This document shows positions 2,601-21,610 of a DNA stretch of 21,610 bases, one piece after another. This stretch comes from a virus. The notes beneath the pieces were generated by a model that saw only the letters and a list, made by a program, of their open reading frames with translations, had not been told where the DNA came from and ran no database searches. Numbering within the stretch: position 1 is the first letter of the stretch; every line of letters starts with the position of its first letter. A program made the translations under genes and the position numbers. The stretch is taken from positions 1-21,610 of the IMG/VR virus record IMGVR_UViG_3300043803_000755. One strand, given 5' to 3'.

Positions 2601-2607
2601 AAGGATC

Positions 2608-3654: not shown

Positions 3655-3667
3655 GAAAAATCACCGG
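3648..3667. terminator. Hairpin at convergent int/endolysin ends (possible weak bidirectional terminator)
   Basis: CCGGTGA (3648-3654) and TCACCGG (3661-3667) form a perfect 7-bp stem with a GAAAAA loop. The integrase stop codon lies in one arm and the endolysin stop in the other. No U-tract follows on either strand, so a canonical intrinsic terminator is not supported. It may slow or pair colliding transcripts, or be partly coincidental because both proteins end in Arg-stop. Confidence 0.35.
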
Positions 3668-4224: not shown

Positions 4225-4610
4225 GGCATCTTCTGGAAAAACCGCCAGCCGCCGAGACGGACAGCGCGGTAGATCGTCTCGCGGGTCGCCCAGCCGATGC
4301 CGAGATTGTGCATCGCTTCTTTGAAAATCAGGTCGGCGGTCTTTCGGTCGATGTGCAGGCGCTTGGACTGTGCGCTGTAAAGCCAATCGTGAATGATCGC
4401 CGCAGGGAAGTAGGCTCCATACGGCTGGAAGATCGACCAGAAGACACGCGGCACAGATGCGCCATCGGTATGGAATCCGGTCGGCACTGTGATCATGCCA
4501 AGGCTGCCGATGTATCGAAAATAATGCGTGAGCTGGAACACCCTGCTCCCTTCCACCGATCCGACGTATCGGACCTGCAACGGGTCAGGAAAGCAGGGTG
4601 GCAGAGTCAT
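4221..4610 (-). CDS. DUF1353 family protein, 129 aa
   Basis: It has the signature features of DUF1353 phage proteins: the VPTGFHTDGASVPR motif (about residues 41-54) and the IIHDWLYSAQ motif (about 70-79), followed by a helical C-terminal region. Members are common in phage late or lysis regions, often beside endolysin and holin genes. A hydrolase-like or lysis-accessory role has been suggested but is not established. It starts 4 nt after the stop of the holin-like gene and overlaps the endolysin start, so the three form a translationally coupled lysis cassette. Confidence 0.85.
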   Translation of the reverse strand: MTLPPCFPDPLQVRYVGSVEGSRVFQLTHYFRYIGSLGMITVPTGFHTDGASVPRVFWSIFQPYGAYFPAAIIHDWLYSAQSKRLHIDRKTADLIFKEAMHNLGIGWATRETIYRAVRLGGWRFFQKMP

Positions 4611-4614
4611 GGCA

Positions 4615-4791
4615 TCACTTCCCTTTGTAAAAATTCCGAATCAGATTTATGCAGGAAATCACCGAGACGATGAGAAAGGCCACGCCGCCTGCGACGCGCA
4701 CGATGTAGTCAATCTGCTGCATGGCTGGGGTGATGACCGCCATTGCGGATGATGTCAGGCCGACGATGGAGTTGGAGATGTTGCTGTTCAT
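4615..4791 (-). CDS. Holin-like small membrane protein, 58 aa
   Basis: This very short gene reads MNSNISNSIVGLTSSAMAV and continues through a clear hydrophobic helix at about residues 33-50 (VAGGVAFLIVSVISCINL) to a basic tail (IRNFYKGK). A weaker hydrophobic segment spans 10-23. Size, short polar N-terminus, one or two membrane segments and positive C-terminus fit small phage holins. Its ATG overlaps the upstream stop as ATGA (4788-4791) and its stop lies 4 nt before the DUF1353 start. Position directly before DUF1353 and endolysin strongly suggests the pore-former that releases the signal-less endolysin. A spanin or antiholin role is the alternative. Confidence 0.7.
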   Translation of the reverse strand: MNSNISNSIVGLTSSAMAVITPAMQQIDYIVRVAGGVAFLIVSVISCINLIRNFYKGK

Positions 4792-5135
4792 GGTTCGATG
4801 TCAGGGTCTGGGATGTCAGAAATTGGTTCGTTGTATGTGAATGTCTGGCCATCGAATGACCAGTTGGCTGGCAGGTCGGTAGGCGCTCGGTTGCAGAAGC
4901 GAGGATCATTGACCGCATCGAGGAGAGCATTGACAGCAAGTGCCGCCTGATTGTTCAGCGCGAAGATCGCAAGTGTTTGTTGCAAATCCTCTTGCATGTC
5001 GGCAACCACTGTCGTCGGATCCCGCTGCCAGAATGCTGTCCACTGCGTTCGCAGGACAGTGGCAAGGTGGTGTGCCGACTCGGCTCCTGCCAATGCGGCG
5101 GCGTCAAGGATTGTTGGTTTCAGTAAAGTGATCAT
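4788..5135 (-). CDS. Hypothetical phage protein upstream of holin, 115 aa
   Basis: Mostly helical residues 1-85 (DAAALAGAESAHHLATVL, DLQQTLAIFALNNQAALAVNALLDAV) precede a proline-rich, aromatic tail (WSFDGQTFTYNEPISDIPDPD). There is no membrane segment or signal peptide. It lies between the tail fibre and the holin and is coupled to the holin by an ATGA overlap. It could be a fibre-assembly chaperone or lysis accessory; I do not recognise a family. Confidence 0.6.
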   Translation of the reverse strand: MITLLKPTILDAAALAGAESAHHLATVLRTQWTAFWQRDPTTVVADMQEDLQQTLAIFALNNQAALAVNALLDAVNDPRFCNRAPTDLPANWSFDGQTFTYNEPISDIPDPDIEP

Positions 5136-5144
5136 GACTTTGCA

Positions 5145-6938
5145 CTAGTTGTAACGGAACTCGAAACGATTGGCACGGAAGCGCGCGTAATTGTTCCCGA
5201 ATCCATTTGCCAATGTCGATTGTGCGATGATTGTAATCGCGTCGTTTGTCCCGTCAGCCGATGTCGGCCCGCCAGAAACAGTTGCGACTGTCGTGCCTGA
5301 AGAGTTAATCACATTCAATGTGCCGGAACTTACGTCGAGCGTGATGATGTCAGGCGTGTTGATGTTTGCAGGGGTTCCATAGATGTAAGCGCCTCCTCCA
5401 TAGGTGACCGCTGTGACACGATTGTTTCCACCCGACTTATCAAATCGGATTCCATATCCCCCGGTGGTTACAGGCGGGTCTGCGCCAGATGGTGCCGATC
5501 CAGCCGGATTTGAACCGATCCATATCCAGACGACTCCGTCACCATCCAGTGCTAGCTGACTAACGCCAAATCGAAATCTAAATTTTTGATTCCAGCTGAT
5601 TTCGGCTTCGTTCCCCAGATATGGAAGGAAGCCTTGGTTGTTGGCTGCGGCGAACATGTATCCGGCAAGACTGGCGGTGCCGGTTGTTCCGGTGATCAAC
5701 TGCATCGTCACGTCTTGCAGTCCGCGAGTCGGCGTGCCTGTGTTGTAATTTGCGAGAATCATGGATGAGTTGAACGGCAAGTAGTTATATCCTACCAATC
5801 CTTCAACATCGGCGCGTGTCACCAAGCTTGTGGCAGCAGCCGACCCGGTTCCCGACGATGTCGGCCTTGTCGTCGAAGAGAAGCTCCACGCGCCGGATGC
5901 GGTTATTGATGTAATTGCGCCGATCTTGGTTGTGACGTATGCCCACAGATTTGCGAGAGTCAACCGCTTGATCGCACTGGACGCAGCGCTATCAGCAATC
6001 GCGACAAGATCGGCATCGACCGCAGTTGTTTTCTCTGTGGCGGATGCAACGCCGGGGAAGAGGTTGCCGATGGCGTTGTCCGCTGTGCTTGCGCCTGTTC
6101 CGCCGTCAGCAATGGCAAGGTCTGTAATCCCGGATATGCTGCCGCCGGTGATTGTGACGTTGTTTGCGTTCTGGCTTGCGATTGTCCCGGCATTGGTAAT
6201 GTCAGAAAGAACATGCGTGTGGACCGTGGCCGCCGCACCGATCTCGGTGAGTGATGGCACTTGCGTTGGCCGCACGAAAAGCGTGCCGTTGTTCGCGGAT
6301 GCTGATACGACAACCGCAACGACGACGTAGCCGCCCGCGGTTGGCGCGACGTTGGTCAGGTTGGCGCTGCCGGTCACGGCGTAGATGATATTCCCGCTTG
6401 CCCAGCTTTGGCCGTAGTTTCCGCCGTTGGTCTGGATGCCTTTGATCTTCCCGAAATGCGTCACATAACCTGTGCCTTCCGCGCCGGTGATCGCCATCGT
6501 CGCGATGCCCATGAATGCTTTCGGATCTGTGCCGTCCCACGGCTTCACGCGAAGCTTACCGCTGTTCCCGACGGTCCCCGAATACATTACCGGCGCGCCT
6601 TTTGCGATAGTCGTGCCGGTGTTGTTCTCGACGTGATAAAGCGTCTTCTCGCCGATCTCGAGCAGCGTGTCGCCTTTGAGCCGCAGCGATAGTGTCTCTT
6701 CATCTTGGAACCATGTCAGTTCGCCAAGGTTCTGCGGCTCGCCGTTCGTGGTCGTAAACGGCACGATGTCGATGGTCCCGGTCAGTGCGTTCCACTCGGT
6801 GACGCCCATCTGGCCCTGCGGCCCGGTTTCGCCTTGGATTCCCTGGATGCCTTGGATGCCCTGCGGCCCGCGTCGGTCAAGGTTGACGGTGTATGCCGTC
6901 GATCCGCTGCCGGTGATGACTGTGACTTGCGTGGACAT
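5145..6938 (-). CDS. Tail fibre/receptor-binding protein with collagen-like segment, 597 aa
   Basis: A short beta N-terminus (MSTQVTVITGSGSTAY) leads into seven Gly-X-Y triplets at residues 24-45 (GPQGIQGIQGIQGETGPQG), a trimeric collagen-like stalk. Residues about 50-235 are beta-rich. At about 245-300 a repeat-like region (HVLSDITNAG, NNVTITGGSISGITDLAIADGGTG) is typical of phage fibre shafts. The C-terminal ~200 residues look like a beta-sandwich tip with Trp/Gly-rich strands (DGDGVVWIWIGSNPAG), ending ARFRANRFEFRYN, and probably contact the host surface. It is the largest distal gene and the last structural gene before lysis. The stop of the preceding gene is separated from its ATG by one base. 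Confidence 0.85.
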   Translation of the reverse strand: MSTQVTVITGSGSTAYTVNLDRRGPQGIQGIQGIQGETGPQGQMGVTEWNALTGTIDIVPFTTTNGEPQNLGELTWFQDEETLSLRLKGDTLLEIGEKTLYHVENNTGTTIAKGAPVMYSGTVGNSGKLRVKPWDGTDPKAFMGIATMAITGAEGTGYVTHFGKIKGIQTNGGNYGQSWASGNIIYAVTGSANLTNVAPTAGGYVVVAVVVSASANNGTLFVRPTQVPSLTEIGAAATVHTHVLSDITNAGTIASQNANNVTITGGSISGITDLAIADGGTGASTADNAIGNLFPGVASATEKTTAVDADLVAIADSAASSAIKRLTLANLWAYVTTKIGAITSITASGAWSFSSTTRPTSSGTGSAAATSLVTRADVEGLVGYNYLPFNSSMILANYNTGTPTRGLQDVTMQLITGTTGTASLAGYMFAAANNQGFLPYLGNEAEISWNQKFRFRFGVSQLALDGDGVVWIWIGSNPAGSAPSGADPPVTTGGYGIRFDKSGGNNRVTAVTYGGGAYIYGTPANINTPDIITLDVSSGTLNVINSSGTTVATVSGGPTSADGTNDAITIIAQSTLANGFGNNYARFRANRFEFRYN

Positions 6939-6939
6939 G

Positions 6940-7305
6940 TTATAATATCGGATCAGGATTGATTTGCAGGCTGCCGATGATCACGGGTTTCTTCACGCCG
7001 TCCGCATCGGTGGTTTCCAAGGCCCATGAGTAATTGCCAGCGGAAAGCGATAGGATGCGCGGGTCAACCGTGATGTCCCATGCGCGGGCGGCGGTATTGT
7101 TGAGTGTCACTTGCCCGGCGGTCGCGCTGGTGAGCGTGAGAGCGGCAGTGCCGGATTCCGACTGAAGCTGGAATGCCGCGCTGGATAGCACGGCGTCGAA
7201 CTCGGTGGAGTCGGTCGAGTCAATTCGCCACGTCAGCCCCGGCCATGTGCAGGTGCTGAACGTCGGCGGAAGCTCGATGAAGGGTGGTGTAAGTTGGCAG
7301 GACAT
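6940..7305 (-). CDS. Baseplate-upper-protein-like tail protein, 121 aa
   Basis: The sequence has the shape of the N-terminal domain of phage baseplate upper proteins. An early W-x-W-R-I strand (CTWPGLTWRIDSTDSTEFD) is followed by alternating strands with TLTSATAGQVTLNN, then the typical LSAGNYSWALETTDADGVKKPVIIGSLQI ending. It probably links the fibre to the tail tip. The gene sits directly between the 293-aa structural gene and the fibre, with 1-2 nt gaps on each side, so translation is likely coupled. Confidence 0.6.
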   Translation of the reverse strand: MSCQLTPPFIELPPTFSTCTWPGLTWRIDSTDSTEFDAVLSSAAFQLQSESGTAALTLTSATAGQVTLNNTAARAWDITVDPRILSLSAGNYSWALETTDADGVKKPVIIGSLQINPDPIL

Positions 7306-7307
7306 GG

Positions 7308-8189
7308 TTATTGGCCGATCACTGTGATGGTGAGAATGGCGGGGCCGTTGGCGTTAGCTGTGTATGGGTTATCGATCATGCAATCTATTGATTCTTTCAT
7401 TGCTAGAAGCACATACATTTGCCCGTTCATTTTTATTACTTCCTCGCTGTCTCCGTTGATTGCTATTACAGCGTTCGATCTGTTTTCAAAAAGCACAGCC
7501 TTTGTGTCCAATGGCGTAATATCCACGCCCTCAAAGTCTTTACCGTCGCCGTCGACGATGTAAACTCCGCTGGTGGCGACGCCTGCCGTGGTGTTGGCGC
7601 TCGTTGCCGCTGGCGTGATACCAGTGCATGTCCCGTTGTTAAGGCTGATGTTCAGGTTCGCGTCATTGTCAAGGCGGATCGGAATGCTTGTGACTCCGTC
7701 CGATAGAGTTGAAATAGGCTTGCGGGTCAAAATGATGTCGGCGCTAGTGCCGGAAACATCGAACCGCTGAGCGATTGTCGCATTGGCTGCCAGCGCGGTC
7801 CGCACCTTGGCGGCCCATTGCGCTGCTGTGTCGTTGAGCGCCACCGCCACGTTGAGCGTGAGCGGGCTGCCTGCCATGCCGGTGGATGTGACCACCACGG
7901 CGGCATTGCCTGCCAGTGTGATCGTTCCGGCGGCTGTGGCAGTCTCGACCTGCTGGGCTCCTGCCACGAATGCCGTGGTGCCGGTGGTGTCGCCGTCTGT
8001 CAGGTCGAAAACGAAATCCGTAGCTGTGTCTGAGGTGATGAATCCACGCAGCGAATAAGCGACGTTCGCGCCGGTCAGCGGGATCACCGTATTCCCGACG
8101 CCGATCTGCACGTCGTTGGTCACGTTCGTCCCGGTGGGTGTCGCGGATGCCCGTAGCCCGACAAATGCCTGCGCCTGCGTGAGGTTCAT
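7308..8189 (-). CDS. Putative distal tail structural protein, 293 aa
   Basis: The sequence is beta-rich and Thr/Ala/Asn-rich with no enzymatic motif. Examples are GVGNTVIPLTGANVAYSL, TATAAGTITLAGNAAVVV and KMNGQMYVLLAMKESIDCMI. The middle (residues about 100-150, LNVAVALNDTAAQWAAKV) recalls a repeated fold seen in phage tail adaptors. I cannot name a family. Gene order (tape measure, three unknowns, this gene, BppU-like, fibre) places it in the tail tip or baseplate. The ATG at 8189 is preceded by TTGACA exactly 13 nt upstream and AAGGGC immediately upstream. Part of the 3' half (about 7360-7520) is noticeably more AT-rich than its neighbours. Confidence 0.65.
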   Translation of the reverse strand: MNLTQAQAFVGLRASATPTGTNVTNDVQIGVGNTVIPLTGANVAYSLRGFITSDTATDFVFDLTDGDTTGTTAFVAGAQQVETATAAGTITLAGNAAVVVTSTGMAGSPLTLNVAVALNDTAAQWAAKVRTALAANATIAQRFDVSGTSADIILTRKPISTLSDGVTSIPIRLDNDANLNISLNNGTCTGITPAATSANTTAGVATSGVYIVDGDGKDFEGVDITPLDTKAVLFENRSNAVIAINGDSEEVIKMNGQMYVLLAMKESIDCMIDNPYTANANGPAILTITVIGQ

Positions 8190-8208
8190 GCCCTTGGCAG
8201 GGTGTCAA
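8190..8208 (-). promoter_or_regulatory. TTGACA-N13-ATG start element (copy A, distal tail gene)
   Basis: On the minus strand, TTGACA (8208-8203) is followed by CCCTGCCAAGGGC and then ATG at 8189. The same hexamer at the same 13-nt distance precedes three other starts, and a fifth copy lies at 14 nt. It is too close to the ATG to be the -35 box of a promoter for this gene. Confidence 0.6.
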
Positions 8209-8211
8209 AAA

Positions 8212-8964
8212 TCAGGGGACCATGAACTCGACTTCGGTCGTGATCGCCACCGAGCTGGTGTCCCAGCCTGTCCCGTCGACGTTGTGCGTGTGGGTGAAAA
8301 CCTTGCCGCGCATGTCGCGTGCTTGAGCTTCGACGGTTGGCAGGTCATCGTCGGCGCGGTAGGCGGCCAGCACGGTGTCAACGCCCCAGGTGAGAATGTC
8401 CGCCGCGAACTTCTTCTCGGGCGCGCTGTCGTCGATGCTGGAGCGCGGCAGCGGGTCGATCACCTGCACGGTGTCGTTGATGTCCGTCACGCTGCCGTTC
8501 TGGTCGCGCTCGCCGATCTTTCCGGTGTAGGAGAGCAGCAGCACCGGAAACACGCGGACCATCGCTCGGCGCGGGTCCGGCGGCATGCGTAGCTGCGCTG
8601 GCGTAGAGGAAAACTCAGATGTGCCGCACAGCAACATGTAGCACTCGCCCGCTTGCAAGTCGTATTCCGGCTGCCAGTCGATCTGGTCCGGCACGAAAAT
8701 CCCCGGAGACGGCGGAAAGGCGCTATCGTCCGGCGAGGGTATCGCAACGCGGGACAGCGTGACCTCCTCGTCTAGCGTATACGTTTCCACAATGTCATCA
8801 GTGCCGTCGTCATACTCGCGGCTGCCGGTGATCTGGATGCGCACGCGGATCTCGTCATACCACGGCGAAGCCTCGATGCCGTTTCCAGCCAGCGGATCTC
8901 CGATGATATTGGCAAGGTCAACGAGACTGCCGCTGCTGCCGATGTCTTTGATCGGGATGCTCAT
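8212..8964 (-). CDS. Putative tail/baseplate protein, 250 aa
   Basis: I do not recognise the family. The protein is acidic and beta-rich, with segments such as SPWYDEIRVRIQITGSREYDDG, AGECYMLLCGTSEF and a C-terminal histidine/threonine strand (GKVFTHTHNVDGTGW). No catalytic signature, membrane segment or signal peptide is visible. I chose ATG at 8964 rather than 8973 because it overlaps the upstream stop as ATGA and is preceded by GGAGGG, one of the few good SD sequences in the late operon. Position after the tape measure suggests a distal tail component. Confidence 0.6.
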   Translation of the reverse strand: MSIPIKDIGSSGSLVDLANIIGDPLAGNGIEASPWYDEIRVRIQITGSREYDDGTDDIVETYTLDEEVTLSRVAIPSPDDSAFPPSPGIFVPDQIDWQPEYDLQAGECYMLLCGTSEFSSTPAQLRMPPDPRRAMVRVFPVLLLSYTGKIGERDQNGSVTDINDTVQVIDPLPRSSIDDSAPEKKFAADILTWGVDTVLAAYRADDDLPTVEAQARDMRGKVFTHTHNVDGTGWDTSSVAITTEVEFMVP

Positions 8965-9497
8965 ACCCTCCACCAGATGTTGACGCTTCCGAAGCTGGCG
9001 ACGTCGTAGTTTCCGCCATCGGTGACGTTGGTGATGGTCGCGATTCCGCCTGAGAACGCAATCTCGGCAATGCGGCGGTAGGACGTGAACCCGGTCGGCG
9101 CGATCGTCGGGCCGCCGTCGGTTGTTTCGACCGTCGCCACATGCGCATCAGGCGAGCCGTAGGTGGTGGCGATCTTGAGATAGATCGTGGTGGCCGTCGT
9201 GATGGTCAGCTCCGGCGGTGGATCATCGTCGAGCGCATCGCCGCCGAGCGTCACCATCGTGCCGTTGATAAGTCCCGGCACGACGCGGATCGTGTCCAAG
9301 TCGTTGCCGGGGATAACGGTCAGCGGCCTTGGCGGGGTGGATGCCGCAGCACCGCCCGGTTGCTTGGTCACAATAACGGGTCGATCACGCAGCGCGACGA
9401 TGGCCTTGCGGACGTCCGATGAAAACCTGCCGAGCCACTGCGGACTGGTGATGACCGACGGAATCGGGATTGGAAGTTTTCCGTTGCGTGCGCTCAT
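8961..9497 (-). CDS. Putative tail protein, 178 aa
   Basis: A basic, proline-containing N-terminus (MSARNGKLPIPIPSVITSPQW) with an RFSSDVRKAIVALRDRPVIV helix/strand is followed by beta-rich, Asp/Gly/Thr sequence ending GSVNIWWRV. I do not recognise a family. The start at 9497 is preferred over 9554, which would overlap the upstream gene by about 50 nt. The chosen start lies 4 nt after the upstream stop (9502-9504), and the stop overlaps the next start as ATGA. It is probably part of the tail tip. Confidence 0.55.
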   Translation of the reverse strand: MSARNGKLPIPIPSVITSPQWLGRFSSDVRKAIVALRDRPVIVTKQPGGAAASTPPRPLTVIPGNDLDTIRVVPGLINGTMVTLGGDALDDDPPPELTITTATTIYLKIATTYGSPDAHVATVETTDGGPTIAPTGFTSYRRIAEIAFSGGIATITNVTDGGNYDVASFGSVNIWWRV

Positions 9498-9501
9498 GCT
9501 G

Positions 9502-10347
9502 TTAGCTGTAAAGGAATGCGTCCCAGCCTTCGCGCTCGGATAGCGTCCATTCAATCGTCGTCTGGTAAAGCTCGCCGCGCTGCTCTTGCGATGCGCTGGT
9601 CAATAGCCAGTTGCGGTCGCCGGATACGTTCGGCGGGTTGCCGCGCGGTGTCGCCACCTTGCTGAGTAAGTTCAGCTGCGAGGCGGTCATGCCTTCGTTC
9701 CCCTGCGTCGTCTCCGTCCATGTTATAGACGTCGAAAGGTATGTTTTGATTCCAGCAGAAATGCGGCGGGCGAACTCTTGGGCGTCTGCGCCAAGCGTGA
9801 TCGTGGTATTGTCTGACCATTTCAGCGCGTTAAAGCTGGCAGCCCAGCTAAATCCATCGGCAACCTCGTAGTCTCCGACTTCGGTGTAATTGTAATTCGC
9901 CTTTAGCTTCCCGTCGAACAATTCGCCAAGCGCGTATTTCTCCGGGTCGGTCAGGTCTTTCCACTTGGGATGCTCGGTCAGATCAAGCTCCGCAATCCTT
10001 CCCTCCAGCCGATACGTCGACTCGATGCCCGTGCCGAGGTTTTCTTCGTCGTATTGTGCGCCCGCCGCCCCTGCGTAGTTCACCGTGACCATGCATGTCC
10101 CGGCCTCGCCGTATTTCACGCTGCGGCTTTCGACGACAAGAAAGTTAAAGATCGCCGGGATGGTGCTGTCAGCCACGATGGCGAAGGTTCCAGGCTTGAA
10201 CTGGTTGGAAACCGTCGTGCTGGAAAACGTGCTGGCCAGCATGTAATACTCCCGCGTAGCCGTCCATCCGCCTTGCTGGTCTTGCGTGGCGGTAAATTCC
10301 CCGAGCGGGATGACTTCGCCTGTTGTGAGTCCGATTTGTGTGGCCAT
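9502..10347 (-). CDS. Putative distal tail protein, 281 aa
   Basis: This is the first gene after the tape measure. The sequence is beta-rich and aromatic (QQGGWTATREYYMLASTF, FNFLVVESRSVKYGEAGTCMVTV, ELYQTTIEWTLSEREGWDAFLY) with no enzyme motif. In lambda-like phages this slot holds the distal-tail/gpM-L type proteins, which is the basis for the call; I cannot identify the family from sequence. It has no SD; CCCCACCCGCTAAATC precedes ATG, another G-poor leader. It is spaced 3 bp from the tape measure stop. Confidence 0.6.
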   Translation of the reverse strand: MATQIGLTTGEVIPLGEFTATQDQQGGWTATREYYMLASTFSSTTVSNQFKPGTFAIVADSTIPAIFNFLVVESRSVKYGEAGTCMVTVNYAGAAGAQYDEENLGTGIESTYRLEGRIAELDLTEHPKWKDLTDPEKYALGELFDGKLKANYNYTEVGDYEVADGFSWAASFNALKWSDNTTITLGADAQEFARRISAGIKTYLSTSITWTETTQGNEGMTASQLNLLSKVATPRGNPPNVSGDRNWLLTSASQEQRGELYQTTIEWTLSEREGWDAFLYS

Positions 10348-10350
10348 GAT

Positions 10351-11646
10351 TTAGCGGGTGGGGAATGTGGTGCCTCTGGTGTTTTGCTCGACCTTGCTCA
10401 TCACCTCGATGAGCCTGCGCCCGGTTTCGTCGCGGAGTGATGATGACTCGCCCGGTGCGGCTTGCCGGAATGTTTGGCCGTTCGGATCGACGCGGCGGAA
10501 GTTCGCGTCGTAAGTCAACTCGGCCATCATGCTGGCAAACTGGTTTTGCATCTCGCGCATTGCCACGCGGGACTCAAATCCGGTCACGGTTGCGTTTGCC
10601 TCTGATGCGCGTGTTCCAAATTCTGCCTTTCCGAATACCTTATCAAGTCCGGTTGCGCTGCCCCAGAAGTTCGCGCTCCCTTGGAAGCCTTGGAAAACCT
10701 TCGTGCCGATGCCGCGCATGGTGGCACCGAATGCAACGCCGAACCCTTTCCCAATGGTCATTCCGATAAACTCGCCAATCGCCATCAGCTTCGCCGTGTC
10801 GCCATTCACCGCGTCGGCGATGGTGTTGGACACCGCATTCCCTATTCTCGCGGCGGCTTCCTTCAGCCTTGGAAGCTGGTCGATTAGTCCTTGCGCCATC
10901 CTGTCGAACTGGTCGGACAACGGCTTGCCGACTTCATCGCGGAGTTGCTCGAAAGCGCGGGACATGCGCTCGGACCCGTTGGCGGTGGCGGCTGCGGTGC
11001 CTTTCACCTGCCGCTCGACGGCGGATAGGACATTGCCCATGTATTCCGCCCGGTCTCCGGACTGCTCGAAAGCGGCTTTGATCTTGTCGATCTGGTCGGT
11101 CGTGAGCGTGCCAGTGCGGCGGAGAGCGGTCAGCCCGCGCTCGGGGTCGGACAGTGCCTTACCCAGCATCACCGCATTGGATTCCGCGCTGCCAAAACCG
11201 GTGGCGGCAAGGTCGATTGCTGCACGGGTGGCGCGGTCGAATGCGCCGTCCACGACGCCTGCGGTTTTCGCAAGATCGGCAAACGTCGCCAGCTTCGATT
11301 GAGTCATCGTGATCGACGCCGCGTCCACTCCTGTCAGCAGCTCGGTGGCGTCGGCCATCGCAAGCAAGCGGTCCGTCACCTTGTCCGCGCTGTTACCATA
11401 AAGGCCCATTTGGCGAACGACGTTCCGCAGTCGCGCCTCCTCCGTCTTGGCCTGCTCACCTTCCTTGACGAGACTCATGAACCCGCGCATGGCGTCGCCT
11501 GCGGCACGGATGCTCGCGCCAAGTGCTTTGAATGCGACAAGGCCGCCGACCATCACGTTGAGCGACGATAGCCGGCCCTTCACGCCCTTCATCGTGCGCT
11601 CGAACTGTGACGCATCCGCGCCGACTTTTACTTTGATCCCGGCCAT
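10351..11646 (-). CDS. Tail tape measure protein, 431 aa
   Basis: It opens MAGIKVKVGADASQFERTM, the classic tape-measure N-terminus, followed by long Ala-rich helices. A hydrophobic Gly-rich region (about 31-55, LNVMVGGLVAFKALGASI) and a second one (about 290-320, MAIGEFIGMTIGKGFGVAFG) resemble the usual internal hydrophobic stretches. At 431 residues it is short for the family, predicting a short flexible tail of perhaps 60-70 nm by the usual about 0.15 nm per residue rule. It directly follows the chaperone frameshift pair, as in lambda. The start has TTGACA 13 nt upstream. Confidence 0.85.
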   Translation of the reverse strand: MAGIKVKVGADASQFERTMKGVKGRLSSLNVMVGGLVAFKALGASIRAAGDAMRGFMSLVKEGEQAKTEEARLRNVVRQMGLYGNSADKVTDRLLAMADATELLTGVDAASITMTQSKLATFADLAKTAGVVDGAFDRATRAAIDLAATGFGSAESNAVMLGKALSDPERGLTALRRTGTLTTDQIDKIKAAFEQSGDRAEYMGNVLSAVERQVKGTAAATANGSERMSRAFEQLRDEVGKPLSDQFDRMAQGLIDQLPRLKEAAARIGNAVSNTIADAVNGDTAKLMAIGEFIGMTIGKGFGVAFGATMRGIGTKVFQGFQGSANFWGSATGLDKVFGKAEFGTRASEANATVTGFESRVAMREMQNQFASMMAELTYDANFRRVDPNGQTFRQAAPGESSSLRDETGRRLIEVMSKVEQNTRGTTFPTR

Positions 11647-14488: not shown

Positions 14489-15019
14489 ATGAACAAGCCA
14501 ATGCTCCTCACCGACTACTGCGGCACGAACGTACGCGGCTGGTTGATGTCCGAGAAGCTGGATGGCTGGCGCGTGATGTGGGATGGCCAGAACTTCTTCA
14601 GCCGCGAGCTTGGCTTGCTGGCAGCGCCGGAATGGTTCAAGGCCGGGATGCCCGCCGTGGCGCTCGACGGCGAGTTGTTCGCAGGCCGGGGCGAGTTCAA
14701 TGCGATCCAAGGCATGATGCGCGACGGCTGGCATGGCCTGACGTTCCGGGTCTTCGACACCATCGCCCCGGGCGCTTACTCCATCCGCCTGCGCACGATC
14801 AAGGCGCTGCCGCTGCCCGCTCATGCTTCGGTGCTCGAGCAGGTCGAAATCAGCACCACGCTGGATGTGATCCGCGGGGCTGATACCATCGTGGCGGCTG
14901 GCGGTGAGGGTGTCGTGGTCCGCAACCCGAAGGGGAAATACCTGCCCGGAGAGCGCACGAATGATGTGGCGCGCTGGGTGCCACAAGACCCGGCCAAGAA
15001 TCGCCGGAAGTCAGCGTGA
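14489..15019 (+). CDS. LigE-like ATP-dependent DNA ligase adenylation domain, 176 aa, no OB domain
   Basis: It would adenylate itself to seal DNA nicks. Nucleotidyltransferase motifs appear in order: motif I EKLDGWR with adenylated K23, the SRELGLLAAPEWF segment typical of the small LigE ligases, motif III LDGELF (D60-E62), IIIa FRVFD (F89, D90) and IV GGEGVVVR (E140). The region where motif V lysines should stand reads NDVARWVP, and the protein ends 12 residues later. The whole OB-fold domain (about 100 residues in known ligases) is missing. The gene lies antisense within the late operon. Its start faces the gp10-like gene and its end overlaps the joining-protein stop by 9 nt. It may act only with a partner, be a vestige, or modify another substrate. 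Confidence 0.8.
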   Translation: MNKPMLLTDYCGTNVRGWLMSEKLDGWRVMWDGQNFFSRELGLLAAPEWFKAGMPAVALDGELFAGRGEFNAIQGMMRDGWHGLTFRVFDTIAPGAYSIRLRTIKALPLPAHASVLEQVEISTTLDVIRGADTIVAAGGEGVVVRNPKGKYLPGERTNDVARWVPQDPAKNRRKSA

Positions 15020-15328
15020 TTCGTTCGGATCGACCAGCGCGAAATGCACGGCGACGGCCCCGGCAGTCACCTCGTTGATCCGGTATGGCCTGCCAGCGAC
15101 CGTGCAGCGCGCGTTGCGGAGTGACAGCGGGTTGGTAACGTCGGACGGCTGGGCGGTGGCTGTGGCGCGGATCTCGGGCTCGATGCCGCCGAGCGCGCCT
15201 TCGCCGCCGAGCCGCTCGTCGTTCCATACGACTTGGAACGTCTGCCCGGCCACGACCATCGTCTCGGTGCCAAGCAGCGCGTCAATTTCGTCGGCGGGCG
15301 CGTTCAGGAAGTCATCGACCAAGCTCAT
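15011..15328 (-). CDS. Putative head-tail joining protein, 105 aa
   Basis: A short N-terminal helix (LVDDFLNAPADEIDALLG) leads to a small beta-barrel-like domain (ETMVVAGQTFQVVWNDE, RNARCTVAGRPYRINEVTAGAVAVHFALV). Size, fold pattern and place between the capsid module and the gp10-like gene match FII/HK97-gp9-type joining proteins. The last 9 nt overlap the antisense ligase gene. The start has TTGACA 13 nt upstream and AGGGGC adjacent. Confidence 0.6.
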   Translation of the reverse strand: MSLVDDFLNAPADEIDALLGTETMVVAGQTFQVVWNDERLGGEGALGGIEPEIRATATAQPSDVTNPLSLRNARCTVAGRPYRINEVTAGAVAVHFALVDPNESR

Positions 15329-15347
15329 GCCCCTATCGGCTTGTCAA
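15329..15347 (-). promoter_or_regulatory. TTGACA-N13-ATG start element (copy C, joining protein)
   Basis: TTGACA (15347-15342), AGCCGATAGGGGC, ATG 15328 on the minus strand. The hexamer overlaps the final codons of the glycosyltransferase gene in a different frame (TTG ACA, Leu-Thr) from copies B and E. Confidence 0.6.
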
Positions 15348-15908
15348 TTCCGGCGCGGCGGTGGTGGCGGCGTCGTGGCGATAGGTGTGCAAGATGCGGT
15401 CGATGTGATGGCCCGTGCGGATTCGCTGGCGTGCCTGGTGCGCCCAGATCGCGTCCTCGCCGTAGTTGGTGAAGCCGAAGACGCATTCGGCCACGCGCTC
15501 ACGTTTCCACGCGCAAACATGCCACGGCGCACGCAGGGTGACGCCGCCGGGGGTGAATGGCTGGTCGGTGTTGTTGATGCCGAAGACAACTTCGGACTCA
15601 AGCCCGTTGTAAATGGCGCGCTGCCGGAAGGTGATCACGTCCGCGCCGGTTTCGATGGCCGCAAGCAGGCTGGAAACGTAATCGTCCGCGATGTCATCAT
15701 CATCGTCGACGAATGCGATATACTCGCCGCATGCGATGTCCACCAGCGCCTGCCGCTTTTCACCGATCGTGCGCTGCCGGTTGTCGCATAGGGCCAAGTG
15801 CTCAACTGGTTTTCCGGAACTTTGGTTTAGTATTTTTTGCGTAAGGCCATGCAAGGCGCTCGTCCGCTCCGGGATTGTCGGTGTGAGGATGCTCAGTTGT
15901 GGTTTCAT
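15333..15908 (-). CDS. GT-A fold (family 2-like) glycosyltransferase, 191 aa
   Basis: It transfers a sugar from a nucleotide-sugar donor. The N-terminus QLSILTPTIPERTSALHGL is the standard first strand and loop of GT2 enzymes. ALVDIACGEYIAFVDDDDDIADDYV (DDDDD at 68-72) is the metal/donor-binding DxD region, and NYGEDAIWA (E151-D152) is the acceptor-side ED motif with the likely catalytic base. At 191 residues it is a minimal single-domain enzyme without membrane segments. I chose the start at 15908 because the enzyme fold begins there. The first 107 nt overlap the preceding 62-aa gene in another frame. Likely targets are virion proteins, given the flanking structural genes. Confidence 0.85.
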   Translation of the reverse strand: MKPQLSILTPTIPERTSALHGLTQKILNQSSGKPVEHLALCDNRQRTIGEKRQALVDIACGEYIAFVDDDDDIADDYVSSLLAAIETGADVITFRQRAIYNGLESEVVFGINNTDQPFTPGGVTLRAPWHVCAWKRERVAECVFGFTNYGEDAIWAHQARQRIRTGHHIDRILHTYRHDAATTAAPELTSR

Positions 15909-15990
15909 GTTTTTTGAAGATATTGACGTAGTTGGCGCGGAACTTTTCGCCATCGACTTTTCGCGGTGTGTCGCCTTTGCCTGCGCTCAT
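15802..15990 (-). CDS. Small phage protein with GKGDTPR N-terminus, 62 aa
   Basis: The sequence MSAGKGDTPRKVDGEKFRAN followed by YVNIFKK resembles a class of tiny phage proteins of about 25-35 residues that usually end soon after the NIF motif. Here the frame continues for about 35 more residues (HETTTEHPHTDNP and a basic end) through the start of the glycosyltransferase gene. The tail is probably a by-product of that overlap. Its ATG overlaps the stop of the 748-aa gene as ATGA (15987-15990). Function unknown. Confidence 0.6.
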   Translation of the reverse strand: MSAGKGDTPRKVDGEKFRANYVNIFKKHETTTEHPHTDNPGADERLAWPYAKNTKPKFRKTS

Positions 15991-18233
15991 GGTTGGGGTT
16001 TGTTGACTTTGATCCAGCAGCGCCCCACCTGCGCCACCTCGTATCCGTTCGCCTCGGAGTGTTCGGTGACGGCCTTCTTGACTTCGTGCCATGGGTAATC
16101 GTGACCGGCGAAGATGCCGCCGGGTTTGAGCTTTGGCCACCATGCGGCGAGATCCTTGACGACGCTGTCATAATCATGGGCCGCGTCGATGAAGACGAAA
16201 TCCAGCGTTCCGTCCGCGAAATCCGCTGCCGATTCGGCGCTGTCTCCTTGGTGAATTTGGATCATGTCGGCCACTCCGGCGGCTGCGATGTTGTCCTTGA
16301 AAACGTGCAGGACGGTGCCGCCATGTCCCGCCACGATGTCAACGTGCGCGGGTTGCTCCTGCTCGCCCAGGAAGGTGTCCACGCAATGCACAACGGCGGG
16401 TTTGTTGATGTCCTGCAATCGCTGGCAAAGGTGGATTGCTGACTGCCCCTGCCAGCTTCCAATCTCAACCACCTGCGCGCCGTCTGGCAATGCCTTGGCG
16501 ATGCTGGAATACAAGCTGCGGTAATCGCACCAGCCTTCAACGTCGCTTGATACGCGGATACTGTCCCTGATTCGGTCCCATATCCCGCGCCCGGTGAGGT
16601 AGTGGAACTGGTCATTGCTCCGCGCATAAGTTTCGTCCATTTCGGATTTCCCAAACGCCGGGTGCATGTGCTCGATGGTAATGCGGTCGCGGGCTTCTAT
16701 CACAACCCGGTCACGCCATGCGCATTGGCTGAAATGGTTGTCTGAAAACATGCTGAAGAACTCCGGGTGGAAAAGGTATCCCTGCTGCTCATAGCGGGCG
16801 CGGGTGAGAATCGCCATACAAAGCAGGTCGTCCGTCCGGTGGCCGTCGTTGATCGCCAGCACGGCGGGTTTGCTGGTGTCGCCGATGGCTTCAAGGATCG
16901 CGGTGTCCCAGCCGCGGAACGGCTTCCAGTCGTCGGAGAGTTGCAGCAGGACATCACCACGGCTGGCGGCTGCGGCTGCGTTCCATGCGGCGACGGGGCC
17001 ACCATCGCCAGCCAAGAATGCGGTGGGGAACCTGACAAAGACTTCGGCGGTTTCGTCGTTGTAATCGGCGGCGAAAAGATGCTCAACGCGCTCCGGGTGG
17101 TCGGCCATGCGCAGCCATTCCATGCGCGTCCTGACCGCCTGCATCGGTCGGCCACGGGTGGCGTGCAAAAGGCTGATGGTAGTCATGCCGGATGTCGCCA
17201 GCATATTGTGCCGGCGGGTGTCTGATTCCAGTGCACGACCTGCCATGCGGAGGGATTGCAGGAAAAGGTCTTCGCGGAAGAATCCGTAAAACATCTTCCG
17301 GTGGTTCCAGCACGGTTTGTCGGGAAACTTGCAGGTCATCATGTGGCGAGCATAAGCCAAGGCTCGCTGTGGCTCGTCGCAGGACATGGACAAGGCTGTC
17401 AGCTCATACAGCGGTTCGGCGCGGCTCGGGTCTTCCGTCCATGCCTGCGTGTAGATCGCGGCCTTGTCGTTGTAGTCCTCGGCCATCGCCGCAAGGGTCA
17501 TGTATGTTTCAAAACGCTCAGCCAGCCCGCCTTCCGGGTGGTCTAGGAACTCTCTGGCAAGCTCGATGGCGCGGGCGTCTCTGCGTCGAGAATACTCGAC
17601 CATGAGATAAAAAGTGTGCGCGTGCGTGCGGTCTTCGTCGGGGATGCTTTCGAGGATGGTGAGGTTCCGATCCTTGGAGCATTCCCGATCCTGGCGCGGG
17701 ATGTGGACAATGCGAACCTCGCTGGATTGCGCTTGTTTCTCCGGCTCGCCAGATACCTGGACAAGGTTCTCATGAAGCGCGTTTTTCCACTGGTAATTGC
17801 CGTTGTTCCGCCAAGCTCGCTCGCGGAAATTCCCAATCACTCCTTGGTCACTCACGATGTAAGGAATGCTGAGGATGCCGACATCCTCTGGCAGCTTGGC
17901 AATCAGGGTGCGGATGTGCTCCAACCCTTCGGCGGTATCGTCCATGTCGGCCCATACGATCCAGTCGCCGGTGCATAGCGCGGCGGATGCGTTGCGGGCG
18001 GCGGCGAAGTCATCGACGTGCGGCCAGTCGTTGTCGGGGGGGTTTTTGTATTCGCCAATCACGCAGCCTCGCTCGGCAGCCATGTAGAGAGTGTTGTCCG
18101 GCGTTTGGCTGCCAACCGCGCGGACCATCACGACCTCGTCGAAATGCGGCTGGAAGGTGTCGAGAAAGCGCGCCACGTCGCGCTCACAGTTCCCGGTAAT
18201 AACGGACAGACTCAGGCGTATCGGCTGTTTCAT
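15987..18233 (-). CDS. Multidomain glycosyltransferase-TPR-glycosyltransferase-methyltransferase, 748 aa
   Basis: Residues 1-200 are a GT2-like domain (LSLSVITGNCERDVARFL; metal-binding WADMDD at 94-99; YQWKNALHENL at 148-156). Residues about 205-345 are helical repeats of TPR type (RAIELAREFLDHPEGG, AIYTQAWTEDPSRAEPLYELTAL). Residues about 345-545 look like a second GT-A-like fold (GPVAAWNAAAAASRGDVLLQ, LSDDW at 432-436). Residues about 570-748 are a class I SAM methyltransferase: motif I VVEIGSWQGQSA (588-599), HCVDTF, FIDAAHDYDSVVKDL and LKPGGIFAGHDY. It probably makes a methylated glycan on capsid or tail proteins, or a surface sugar. It begins after the capsid terminator, so it may be expressed at a lower level. 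Confidence 0.8.
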   Translation of the reverse strand: MKQPIRLSLSVITGNCERDVARFLDTFQPHFDEVVMVRAVGSQTPDNTLYMAAERGCVIGEYKNPPDNDWPHVDDFAAARNASAALCTGDWIVWADMDDTAEGLEHIRTLIAKLPEDVGILSIPYIVSDQGVIGNFRERAWRNNGNYQWKNALHENLVQVSGEPEKQAQSSEVRIVHIPRQDRECSKDRNLTILESIPDEDRTHAHTFYLMVEYSRRRDARAIELAREFLDHPEGGLAERFETYMTLAAMAEDYNDKAAIYTQAWTEDPSRAEPLYELTALSMSCDEPQRALAYARHMMTCKFPDKPCWNHRKMFYGFFREDLFLQSLRMAGRALESDTRRHNMLATSGMTTISLLHATRGRPMQAVRTRMEWLRMADHPERVEHLFAADYNDETAEVFVRFPTAFLAGDGGPVAAWNAAAAASRGDVLLQLSDDWKPFRGWDTAILEAIGDTSKPAVLAINDGHRTDDLLCMAILTRARYEQQGYLFHPEFFSMFSDNHFSQCAWRDRVVIEARDRITIEHMHPAFGKSEMDETYARSNDQFHYLTGRGIWDRIRDSIRVSSDVEGWCDYRSLYSSIAKALPDGAQVVEIGSWQGQSAIHLCQRLQDINKPAVVHCVDTFLGEQEQPAHVDIVAGHGGTVLHVFKDNIAAAGVADMIQIHQGDSAESAADFADGTLDFVFIDAAHDYDSVVKDLAAWWPKLKPGGIFAGHDYPWHEVKKAVTEHSEANGYEVAQVGRCWIKVNKPQP

Positions 18234-18344: not shown

Positions 18345-19253
18345 TCAGTCGGTGCGAGCGATGAGCCCGATGCCGAGGGTGAGCGCGGCAGCCATGCCGA
18401 ACAAACATTCGATGCTTGCGTAGTGCCTGCCCTTCCCGGGGTTGAAATGCCTGCGATAGGTGAATCCGAGCCCGGTTTCTGGATCGGTCACGGTTTCGAC
18501 TGCGAGGTAGCTGTCGCCTGCGTCCTGCGGCTGGAGCTGGCGAACCGCGACTGCCACTGCGTCGGAATGAGCGAGGAAGCCGATGATCGAGAGCGATGCG
18601 CCGATGGTGGTCAGGTTGGCCTGATAAACATTCATACCGAGCAGGCGCGGGATGCGTCCTTCGCGGATGCCTTCGCTGCCGCCATACTGGAACGCTTGCG
18701 AGATGTTCGCGTCGCTTTCAAGTTGGAAGTGCAGGTCTGGGTTGCAGACGAGTGAAACCGCATCCATTGGCACTTGGCGATTGACGAGAGTCCTGCGGGC
18801 TGCGCGGATCTGAGCCAGTCCAGTTCCGCCGATGGTCACGGCGGTTGCGGCAGGGCTGCCGAACGATGCCACCGTGAGAGCATTAAACACGTTCTGCATA
18901 CACTTGCGAGCCAGTGCGCGGCCTTGGTTGGCTGCGAAATTGGTGATGTCAGACGATCCAGCATTTGCATACTGAATGTCGGTCAGGTCAACGCCAACAA
19001 CTTGGTGTTGATCGAGGTTGACGGTGATCGCTGCAATGGTGCCAGCCTCGGTTTCGTATGGAGAGCCACTGTTGTTCGCATAGGCGAAGGTCGTGGAATC
19101 CAAAGCGGAAACGCGCGGGATGATGATCGCATCACCTTTGCGGCGGGTTTCATTGGAGTAGCTGCGGGTAAAGGCAGAGAGAGGGAGAAGACCAGCGGTG
19201 AACGCTTTGAGAACTTCTTGAACGTAGATTTTGTCAACGAATGTGGATGCCAT
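18345..19253 (-). CDS. Major capsid protein, 302 aa
   Basis: The protein begins ASTFVDKIYVQEVLKAFTAG, then SYSNETRRKGDAIIIPRVSAL, with later signatures QHQVVGVDLTDIQYANAG, GRALARKCMQNVFNAL, VSLVCNPDLHFQLESDANISQAF and RIPRLLGMNVYQANL. This matches P22-coat-type/HK97-fold capsid proteins, and no separate accessory domain is visible. The C-terminus (IECLFGMAAALTLGIGLIARTD) is hydrophobic. It lies between protease/scaffold and a strong terminator, the usual place. The leader is AATAACCAACCAACCTACCTACC without any SD, notable for what should be the most abundant virion protein. Confidence 0.85.
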   Translation of the reverse strand: MASTFVDKIYVQEVLKAFTAGLLPLSAFTRSYSNETRRKGDAIIIPRVSALDSTTFAYANNSGSPYETEAGTIAAITVNLDQHQVVGVDLTDIQYANAGSSDITNFAANQGRALARKCMQNVFNALTVASFGSPAATAVTIGGTGLAQIRAARRTLVNRQVPMDAVSLVCNPDLHFQLESDANISQAFQYGGSEGIREGRIPRLLGMNVYQANLTTIGASLSIIGFLAHSDAVAVAVRQLQPQDAGDSYLAVETVTDPETGLGFTYRRHFNPGKGRHYASIECLFGMAAALTLGIGLIARTD

Positions 19254-19274: not shown

Positions 19275-19736
19275 TTATTGGGAGACTTTTGATTGCTCGG
19301 CGAGGATCGCCTTGCGGTGCTTTTGATAGAATGCGGTCGCCTCAGCGCCTTTCAGTTCCTCGAACTGCTGGGTGAGTGTCTTGGCCTCGCCGCTGTCGCC
19401 AACGAGCGCGACCGGTTGCGGGTGGCCTTGCTGGGCGAGCAGCTCGGCGGCCTTGACTGCGGCCTTGGCGTCGATGTCCTCGGCCTGCTTTTCCAGCTCG
19501 GTGATGCGCTCGGCATTGGCCTCGATGGTCTTGCCGGACTCGTCCAATTTGGATGTCAGCTCGGCAACGTCGCTTTGCAGCTTCGCGTTGACCTCAGCCA
19601 GCGGTGCCAGCTCGTCGATCCGCGATTGCGCGGCGGATAGATCGGCACGCAGGGTGTCGTTTTCGACAAGCGCGGCCTCCACCTTGGCGGCGGCTTCTTC
19701 GTTTCCGGGGAATAGTTTTGAAAGGATTCCGGTCAT
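19275..19736 (-). CDS. Possible internally initiated scaffold protein (in frame with protease), 153 aa
   Basis: ATG 19736 (M217 of the fusion, MTGILSKLFPGNEEAAAK) falls exactly at the linker between peptidase and coiled coil, as Nu3 does within lambda gene C. The start is preceded by AAGGGC and by TTGACA at 14 nt. The same element precedes the four genes with starts at 8189, 11646, 13295 and 15328. A separate scaffold in excess over protease would suit procapsid assembly. Expression of this form is inferred. Confidence 0.5.
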   Translation of the reverse strand: MTGILSKLFPGNEEAAAKVEAALVENDTLRADLSAAQSRIDELAPLAEVNAKLQSDVAELTSKLDESGKTIEANAERITELEKQAEDIDAKAAVKAAELLAQQGHPQPVALVGDSGEAKTLTQQFEELKGAEATAFYQKHRKAILAEQSKVSQ

Positions 19737-20384
19737 GCCCTTGGCGGGCGTGTCAAATGACAGCGCGTTTTTCGCGTCCGCTTCCTCTGGCTTTTTGCTG
19801 TAGTCGATAACCTCGGATACGAAGTTGGCGGCCATCGCTGCGTCAGCATCGAGCCAGGTTTCCGCAAACATCAGTTGCCGGATTTGGCCGGGGTCGCCGC
19901 CTGTGCGGTCGGCGTAGATATTGGCGATGTCGCGGCTGATACCGTCGAGCAAATCGGCGGTGCGTTTCATGTCGCGGCTGTCGCCCATTGCAATGCTCGA
20001 TGCTTCGTGAATCATGATGCGCGATTCCTTGGTCATGCGCCGGACATCACCGGCCATCAGGATCACGCTGCCCATGCTCGCGGCCATGCCGTTGACGGTG
20101 GTGACGATTTGCACGCCACGGTTGGACATCTCGCGGAGCGCCGAAAAAATTCGCTGCCCCTCGAAAACCGATCCGCCGGGGCTGTTTATTTCCACCTCGA
20201 CGCTTTCCAGCGCGTCATCAGCAGCGCAAACGACGTCGCCGATACGCATCTGCGCGGCGACTGCGGCGGGTCCGTAAAGACGGCCCAGCTCTTCGATCAG
20301 CTTGTCGGCGGATTCCTTGTGGACGCCGTCATTCAGCTTCAGTTTCCCGGCTCGGTTCTCGATTTGAATTAGGTTCGTTTTCAT
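19275..20384 (-). CDS. ClpP/S49-like head maturation protease fused to coiled-coil scaffold, 369 aa
   Basis: Residues about 20-195 are a ClpP-type serine peptidase: INSPGGSVFEGQRIFSAL (68-83), the nucleophile motif GMAASMG with S103, and MIHEASS with H126. The third triad residue is less clear, near AETWLDADAA (174-183). Residues about 217-330 are strongly coiled coil (LVENDTLRADLSAAQSRIDE, TIEANAERITELEKQ), the scaffold half, ending in a helical tail FYQKHRKAILAEQ that may bind coat protein. This is the lambda gpC/Nu3 arrangement. M217 (ATG 19736) is a plausible internal scaffold start. The gene overlaps the portal end by 56 nt. Confidence 0.85.
   Translation of the reverse strand: MKTNLIQIENRAGKLKLNDGVHKESADKLIEELGRLYGPAAVAAQMRIGDVVCAADDALESVEVEINSPGGSVFEGQRIFSALREMSNRGVQIVTTVNGMAASMGSVILMAGDVRRMTKESRIMIHEASSIAMGDSRDMKRTADLLDGISRDIANIYADRTGGDPGQIRQLMFAETWLDADAAMAANFVSEVIDYSKKPEEADAKNALSFDTPAKGMTGILSKLFPGNEEAAAKVEAALVENDTLRADLSAAQSRIDELAPLAEVNAKLQSDVAELTSKLDESGKTIEANAERITELEKQAEDIDAKAAVKAAELLAQQGHPQPVALVGDSGEAKTLTQQFEELKGAEATAFYQKHRKAILAEQSKVSQ
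19737..19756 (-). promoter_or_regulatory. TTGACA-N14-ATG start element (copy B, internal scaffold start)
   Basis: TTGACA (19756-19751), CGCCCGCCAAGGGC, ATG 19736 on the minus strand. Unlike the other copies the spacer is 14 nt, and the whole element lies in protease coding sequence, so codon constraint could have produced part of it. Confidence 0.45.
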
Positions 20385-21610
20385 TGTCGTCAGTGGGTCG
20401 TGGTTGCTGCATTTCGTTGGGCGTCAGCATCGCCATTTCGCGGTCGTCGACCGGCACGCCGTAGAGTTCTGCGGCCTCGGCAGCGGCGAGCTTTCGCAAG
20501 GCCACCTCGGCTGCGCGTTCGCGGATGTGTTCCTCGTAGGTCTTGCCGCGCATGCTCACGATGTCGCGCATGTTGGCCGCGCCGATCTTCCAGAGCGCCT
20601 CCAGCTCTTTCGTCACCCGGCCATCGTCAATCGTGAGCTTGGGCGGCGTGGAAAAATCCCACTTCCACCAGTCGGCAGACTGCGGCAGATCGCCGCGTTT
20701 CTGCGCCTTGGCAATGGCATAGCCGACGATGCGGCGGGCGGCATGGAAGAGCATGTCCTGCCGGTCTTCAATGCTGCGTTGAGCCATGGCGATTTCCATG
20801 CGCTGCGCCGTGCCGCCACCTGCCGCGTGGCCGGTGTAGAACGCATACGGCCACGAAATCGCGGCGAAGGATGAGCGGAGCAGGCGGTCGTGGAAGTCCA
20901 AGAACGGATTGCCGGGGCGCGTGTTGTTCAGCGTTTCGATCTTCCCGCCGGAGTTGCTGCGGAAATATCGCACAGTCCCGCCGTCCATGGACTGAACGGT
21001 CATGCCGCCGCAGCCGCTGCCATTACCGACAAGCGCGTTGTATGGGTCATCGGGGTCAGGTCCGCCGTTGTCGTTGTATTCTATCAAGCTGATGCTGCTC
21101 ATCTGGAGCATCGCCAGCCGCTCCCACTCGGTGCTTTGCAGAATGTCCCGGCAATCATTGATGCAGGGGGTCAGCGCCGTCAGCCCGCGTCCCTGGTATT
21201 GGAACTCGGGATCGTATAGGTGGATCATGTTCGACGCCGGGATCCACTCGGCAAGGTTGCCGTTTTTATCGAGAAACGCGTATTCCTTCGCCTCGCCGCT
21301 GGGCCAGTAGACGATGCCGTCTTGAATCTGCCCGCCGCGCACGTTGCCGCCTTCCTGCATGCCCGCAGGCGTGCCGATGCGGTGACTCGGGATGCCTTGG
21401 TATTTCGGAAATCCGTTGGCCGTTTGGGTCAGTAGAATGAATGCCTCGCCGTCCACGTCGATTGCCAGACTCCACGTCAGCAAGTTGGTTTTGAAATCGT
21501 GCATGCCACCGCGCGAGTCGCCGATGGCGTAAAACATGTTGGTCAGCCATGACGTCGCGGCGTTGCCGAACTCGGCATCGGTGCCACGATAGATCGGGAC
21601 GAATGCGCGG
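20329..21610 (-). CDS. Portal protein, lambda-gpB-like (5' end off window)
   Basis: The reading frame is open from the right edge to the stop at 20329, giving 426 visible residues. Upstream of M at 21537 the frame continues (RAFVPIYRGTDAEFGNAATS), so that Met is internal and the true start lies outside. Diagnostic portal_2 features are FKTNLLTWSLAIDVDGEAFILL, the YQGIPSHRIG segment, NMIHLYDPEFQYQGRGLTALTP and the later RSSFAAISWPYAFYTGHAAGGG with EDRQDMLFHAARRIVGYAIAKA. It forms the dodecameric DNA gateway; the C-terminal tail is acidic and disordered. The last 56 nt overlap the protease start. Terminase should lie further right. Confidence 0.85.
   Translation of the reverse strand, partial: RAFVPIYRGTDAEFGNAATSWLTNMFYAIGDSRGGMHDFKTNLLTWSLAIDVDGEAFILLTQTANGFPKYQGIPSHRIGTPAGMQEGGNVRGGQIQDGIVYWPSGEAKEYAFLDKNGNLAEWIPASNMIHLYDPEFQYQGRGLTALTPCINDCRDILQSTEWERLAMLQMSSISLIEYNDNGGPDPDDPYNALVGNGSGCGGMTVQSMDGGTVRYFRSNSGGKIETLNNTRPGNPFLDFHDRLLRSSFAAISWPYAFYTGHAAGGGTAQRMEIAMAQRSIEDRQDMLFHAARRIVGYAIAKAQKRGDLPQSADWWKWDFSTPPKLTIDDGRVTKELEALWKIGAANMRDIVSMRGKTYEEHIRERAAEVALRKLAAAEAAELYGVPVDDREMAMLTPNEMQQPRPTDDNENEPNSNREPSRETEAE

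Follow-up and report, generated by a model that had tools for sequence, protein, structure and literature searches.

A glycosyltransferase-TPR-glycosyltransferase-methyltransferase fusion encoded beside a phage capsid gene and co-inherited with it: a candidate system for capsid glycosylation

The stretch of DNA analysed here, hereafter the window, is a linear viral contig of 21.6 kb (IMG/VR record IMGVR_UViG_3300043803_000755, positions 1 to 21,610) with a head-tail module encoded on the minus strand. Directly after the major capsid gene of this module lie a gene for a 748-aa fusion protein, composed of two glycosyltransferase (GT) domains, TPR-like helices and a methyltransferase, and a gene for a small GT of the GT2 family. 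We refer to the two genes as the cassette, and to the N-terminal GT-A domain, the second GT-A domain and the methyltransferase domain of the fusion as GT1, GT2 and MT. The cassette accompanies the capsid gene in every close relative with sufficient sequence, and the capsid is inherited together with GT1 and the TPR helices. We consider it probable, at about two chances in three, that the cassette serves as a dedicated system for capsid glycosylation in which GT1-TPR would prime, GT2 and the small GT would extend and MT would cap a glycan. Virion glycosylation by phage-encoded enzymes is already known, having been reported in mycobacteriophages. To judge from the collections and papers searched, a GT-TPR-GT-MT fusion fixed beside a capsid gene and co-inherited with it is new, and so is the occurrence of GT1 proteins of this kind next to a second family of capsids.

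Pfam, PHROGs, AlphaFold2 and structural comparison agreed on four parts in the fusion (15987..18233, minus strand), and the AlphaFold2 model was confident (pLDDT 89, pTM 0.77). GT1, the proposed priming protein glycosyltransferase, covers residues 1-200 (17634..18233, minus). Residues 201-345 (17199..17633, minus), the proposed capsid-recognition part, are helical in the model and matched TPR chains in a profile search. GT2, the proposed extending glycosyltransferase, spans residues 346-556 (16566..17198, minus), and a class I S-adenosylmethionine-dependent methyltransferase of the sugar O-methyltransferase type occupies residues 557-748 plus the stop codon (15987..16565, minus). Pfam Glycos_transf_2 matched residues 75-135 with 35.3 bits (cut-off 23.3) and was found in all 24 aligned fusion sequences; Methyltransf_24 matched residues 589-713 with 90.8 bits (cut-off 26.3). 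The second GT-A domain was not detected by Pfam. PHROGs profiles delimited three blocks: a GT at 7-323 (phrog_13126, 3e-21), a GT at 351-540 (phrog_14945, 1.8e-21) and a methyltransferase at 571-725 (4e-29). With VIA-align, residues 1-289 were superimposed on SunS and ThuS (Z 23-24.5), residues 350-558 on the GT-A enzymes GalNAc-T2, WrtF and RmlT (Z 17-18, about 180-210 residues aligned), and residues 545-746 on the sugar O-methyltransferases MeT1, SpnH and MycF (Z 18-20). An initial annotation, made from the sequence alone, had already read the protein as these four parts and had named the fold of residues 345-545 as the point at which its reading could fail; since this domain aligns with GT-A enzymes, the reading withstood the check.

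GT1 carries DxDD at residues 96-99 and HE at 154-155, the latter aligning with GmaR and ThuS; across 24 sequences there is no variation at D96, D98, D99 or H154-E155. GT2 contains LSDDW (residues 432-436), of which S433-D434-D435 is invariant in the same number, and MT contains the VEIGSWQGQ...FIDAAHDYD motifs. The adjoining small GT (15333..15908, minus) was likewise recognised as a glycosyltransferase, as first annotated (Glycos_transf_2, 27.5 bits, cut-off 23.3; phrog_8858, 1.6e-33); it has 191 aa when counted from a conserved Met and 206 aa from an upstream ATG.

In the window the genes follow the order portal, protease, capsid, fusion, small GT and a Phage_attach-like gene, so the cassette sits between capsid and head-tail genes, as the initial annotation had it. 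The capsid protein (18345..19253, minus; 302 aa), the proposed glycan acceptor, has an HK97 fold (Phage_capsid_4, 35.3 bits, cut-off 27; phrog_267/283, major head protein). The 369-aa head maturation protease (19275..20384, minus; CLP_protease, 98.6 bits; phrog_94, 1.4e-58) forms the upstream border and served as a linkage control, with the portal protein (20329..21537, minus; Phage_portal_2; phrog_21) as context and second control.

An IMG/VR search seeded with the fusion returned 46 loci, including one with 100% protein identity, and two further IMG/VR searches seeded solely with capsid alignments added loci. After removal of duplicate capsids, and with a minimum of downstream sequence set for each count, GT1 was the next gene downstream of 84/84 distinct capsids (at least 300 nt), GT1-TPR-GT2 was present in 60/60 (at least 2.4 kb) and the small GT in 48/48 (at least 4.5 kb). 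The capsid-seeded loci alone gave the same result (GT1 81/81, small GT 46/46). Pairwise identity among the cassette-bearing capsids went down to 38%. The gene order is not due to chance, since all close relatives with enough sequence share it, and the co-occurrence with this capsid type that the initial annotation had suggested looking for is borne out. MT is optional, being present in 31 of the 48 complete cassettes. Nor is the small GT universal once more distant members of the window's capsid lineage are considered, as some of them (loci L286, L289, L291 and L299) have GT1-TPR-GT2 with no small GT detected. In a few relatives an insert of 1.0-1.5 kb separates capsid and fusion (L016 6390-7482, L087 6340-7029, L089 4114-4689, L102 6369-7337); the inserts of L016, L087 and L089 have a related protein of ~190-230 aa in common, and that of L102 encodes a different, 322-aa protein.

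Pairwise identities of each part were compared with those of the capsid by Spearman correlation over 41 non-redundant loci (Mantel p 0.001-0.004). The correlation was highest for the TPR helices (rho 0.87) and GT1 (0.83), followed by GT2 (0.59), the protease (0.35), the small GT (0.32) and the portal (0.29). The bootstrap 95% interval for TPR minus protease was 0.37-0.67; that for TPR minus GT1 was -0.002 to 0.072, so these two parts are not separated. The pattern was the same in an earlier analysis of 39 loci, where the capsid-TPR partial correlation given portal and protease was 0.85. Single comparisons make the same point. Locus L003 is 99% identical to the window in portal and protease and 95-98% in the small GT and tail genes, but 72% in the capsid and 78% in the fusion. 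Locus L006 is 94% identical in the capsid and 87% in GT1, but 39-40% in portal and protease. The capsid is inherited together with GT1-TPR. GT2 and the small GT co-vary (0.65-0.78). The sequence of MT varies almost independently, with no correlation above 0.28 to any other part, and MT is therefore uninformative about the acceptor. In L007, L008, L010 and L016 a distinct, shorter methyltransferase type (VEVGSWKGKSAIYL), 43-46% identical to that of the window, was found; its sequence suggests that the capping domain has been exchanged.

Relatives of GT1-TPR were also found beside another, unrelated capsid family. In podovirus ctKR88 (MW202524.1, locus L229) an SU10-type capsid gene (PF17236) is followed by a 165-aa gene and then by a 761-aa GT1-TPR protein. 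This protein differs from the fusion in that a GT-B domain replaces the second GT-A domain. Within 1656-10663 of that locus, two genes annotated gtA and yqgM-like come after the GT1-TPR-GT-B gene, and a methyltransferase later. A search with a GT1-TPR alignment including ctKR88 produced many distant relatives. In about 18 IMG/VR contigs a GT1-family gene lies about 0.4-2 kb downstream of an SU10-type capsid gene, and the phrog_1328 major head protein accounted for 15 of the 48 upstream neighbours tested.

Known protein glycosyltransferases offer the closest parallels to GT1-TPR. SunS and ThuS (7msn, 7msp, 7msk), in which a GT-A domain with a helical continuation aligned with the fusion over 268-276 residues, are its nearest matches among solved structures; they are soluble and glycosylate a peptide directly, and we propose the same for GT1-TPR. 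The NCBIfam SunS model (TIGR04195) scored the fusion at 23.2 bits (2.7e-5), far under its cut-off of 350; GT1-TPR is therefore described as working like SunS rather than as a member of that family. The substrate of SunS and ThuS is a bacteriocin and, unlike the fusion, they have no second GT or methyltransferase. GmaR, the flagellin O-GlcNAc transferase of Listeria, matched GT1 at residues 4-195 in a single-sequence phmmer search (1.9e-11). It adds GlcNAc to flagellin, a self-assembling surface protein, and its TPR part has been proposed to recognise flagellin (PMC9638930). In Caulobacter FlmG, efficient glycosylation requires the N-terminal, TPR-containing part, which binds the flagellins (PMC7591256). 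GmaR has an N-terminal GT followed by TPR, as does the fusion, but continues into linker and antirepressor domains, whereas residues 346-748 of the fusion form GT-A and MT instead.

Freeman et al. 2023 reportedly described glycosylation of the Che8 virion, with gp108-gp110. Che8 and the window both have phage-encoded GTs and a methyltransferase domain. The GT half of Che8 gp108 is homologous to the small GT (37% identity in Che8-type phages; hidden Markov model score 130 bits), but gp108 is a GT-MT protein, compared with GT-TPR-GT-MT in the fusion. The Che8 glycosylation genes lie near the right genome end, not beside the capsid, and include no GT1-TPR protein. Models of GT1, GT2 and MT had no match to Che8 gp109 or gp110, which belong to other PHROGs. 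Glycans are reported to be borne by capsid and tail-tube subunits of mycobacteriophages (PMC12619734). For MT, the nearest folds, those of MeT1, SpnH and MycF (about 20% identity), belong to enzymes that act on other sugars, namely a polysaccharide precursor and macrolide sugars. A DNA-modification reading of MT, considered for the label of phrog_2675 ("DNA methyltransferase"), was rejected: by both Pfam and fold, the domain groups with sugar and small-molecule O-methyltransferases. A defence role of the cassette was likewise set aside, PADLOC giving no match.

Since GT1 and TPR vary with the capsid, GT2 varies with the small GT, and MT is freely exchanged or lost, we propose that GT1-TPR primes and the other parts extend or cap. 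GT1 and the TPR helices would bind newly made capsid protein and put the first sugar directly on a side chain, a step modelled on the action of SunS, ThuS and GmaR on peptide or flagellin. GT2 and the small GT would lengthen the sugar chain and the C-terminal methyltransferase, if encoded, would O-methylate a sugar as a cap. With the fused enzymes encoded directly after the capsid gene, each subunit could pass through these steps before it is assembled or while assembly proceeds. The initial annotation had predicted a methylated glycan on the virion, perhaps on capsid or fibre. Synteny, co-inheritance with the capsid rather than other head genes, and the GT1-TPR and Che8 gp108 homologies support a virion target, and the capsid is a better candidate than a fibre. 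The methylation is not essential, because 17 of the 48 complete cassettes are without MT and the sequence of MT evolves independently.

Several observations weigh against capsid glycosylation. The fold matches to SunS and ThuS are at only 16-17% identity, in addition to the low NCBIfam score. The nearest bacterial relatives of GT2 lie in host chromosomal loci, several of them adjoining other glycosyltransferase genes, and these relatives are not known to act on proteins. Recombination breakpoints, taken up below, could account for part of the linkage between capsid and GT1.

It is unlikely, though conceivable, that the target is a virion protein other than the capsid (tail tube, adaptor, decoration or fibre) and that the cassette lies next to the capsid gene simply because the head operon is a convenient location. 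Che8-group phages are reported to carry tail-tube glycans besides those of the capsid (PMC12619734), a fibre was among the targets first proposed, and the small GT varies with GT2 and not with the capsid. GT1 and TPR are, however, tracked by the capsid and not by portal or protease; the tail genes of L003 have remained 97-98% identical though capsid and fusion changed jointly, and in other phages relatives of GT1 come after a capsid of another family. We give slightly less credence to the view that the correlation has no functional basis and is produced by recombination breakpoints, located both inside the fusion and between the protease and capsid genes. Recombination is frequent in phage head modules and the correlation does drop downstream, from GT1 and TPR to GT2 and then to the small GT. 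Yet the protease, about as near the capsid as GT1, reaches only 0.35, so distance alone does not explain the capsid-GT1 correlation, and TPR, farther away than GT1, correlates at least equally. Breakpoints alone also fail to explain why the cassette is universally present among capsids as little as 38% identical, or why GT1 lies next to capsids of the SU10 type.

The bacterial relatives of the cassette bear on a further explanation. A scan of GTDB species genomes gave 12 confirmed matches, all 12 in Verrucomicrobiota and all to GT2; these are chromosomal genes, stand-alone or otherwise fused. In Verrucomicrobium sp. BvORR034 and BvORR106 (L120 997-2802, L123 9054-10859) the GT2 homologue makes up the N-terminal part of chromosomal proteins of 601 aa, which apparently contain another GT2-type domain too. 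The full fusion was not found in 388 Verrucomicrobiota genomes, which had single domains only, and the capsid profile had no match in the seven Verrucomicrobiota genomes carrying the GT2 domain. The phages form a freshwater group, probably with Verrucomicrobiota as hosts, from which the second GT domain may have been recruited. It is improbable that the enzymes are a moron in the head module modifying a host glycan or nucleic acid, for a surface change against superinfection or for DNA glycosylation. PHROGs places the cassette families in the category moron/host takeover, stand-alone GT2 relatives occur in Verrucomicrobiota chromosomes, and phage GTs acting on DNA are known (Pyle 2024, as cited in PMC12619734). 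Against this stand the pairing without exception over 84 distinct capsids, the correlation of the cassette with the capsid and little with its neighbours, and the resemblance of GT1-TPR, nearest to protein glycosyltransferases; no base-hypermodification gene was recognised in the window, a contig that may be incomplete. That GT1-TPR is chiefly a helper of capsid assembly or folding with weak or no transfer activity is very improbable: the GT-TPR protein GmaR does have a second, non-enzymatic role (PMC9638930), but the GT1 motif residues are invariant, and a second GT domain, the small GT and often the methyltransferase are retained.

The gene pairing, seen in every locus tested, predicts the acceptor, and the co-variation points to TPR and GT1 as the recognition side. 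Cassette-free capsids of Verrucomicrobiota genomes, cassettes with and without MT, and the independent SU10-type lineage provide natural controls, and acceptor choice is thus directly testable by pairing or swapping two genes. If lake phages share a conserved capsid glycan, it would be relevant to particle stability, adhesion and recognition. More broadly, and tentatively, for we put its chances well short of even, GT1-TPR proteins could be widespread capsid-dedicated protein glycosyltransferases residing beside the capsid in unrelated HK97-fold lineages, with the TPR part reading the subunit, the downstream GT and methyltransferase parts exchangeable, and glycosylation fixed in head assembly.

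The capsid profile matched 24 of the 388 Verrucomicrobiota genomes. Fourteen of these loci were read over 14-19 kb each; portal-like genes were present in many and cassette parts in none. A Mycobacterium abscessus phage capsid of distant similarity has a head-tail adaptor directly after it. Compared with 20 cassette-free capsids, which are 19-34% identical to that of the window, cassette-bearing capsids all have Ser/Thr at residues 3, 55, 77, 137 and 292, shared by at most 35% of the cassette-free ones; we treat these positions as a lead only. The AlphaFold2 model of the capsid was of moderate confidence (pLDDT 69, the presumed E-loop partly below 50) and matched HK97-fold capsids including that of Che8 (8e16). 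A quick FastTree, rooted at the midpoint, groups the cassette-bearing capsids with a node support of 0.13, so their monophyly is not claimed.

The downstream border of the cassette is the 105-aa head-tail gene (15011..15328, minus), which resembles Phage_attach below the Pfam threshold (E 0.006) and had no PHROGs match. Next to it, on the opposite strand within the head-tail module, a 176-aa ATP-dependent DNA ligase-like open reading frame (14489-15019, plus; phrog_114, profile matched in part) slightly overlaps the genes on both sides; its orientation varies among relatives, being minus in L003 and plus in L032 and L006. Tail genes lie beyond the Phage_attach-like gene, among them that of a 597-aa tail protein (5145-6938, minus) with collagen-like Gly-X-Y repeats at its start (GPQGIQGIQGIQGETGPQG), and an integrase is encoded at 2584-3654 on the plus strand.

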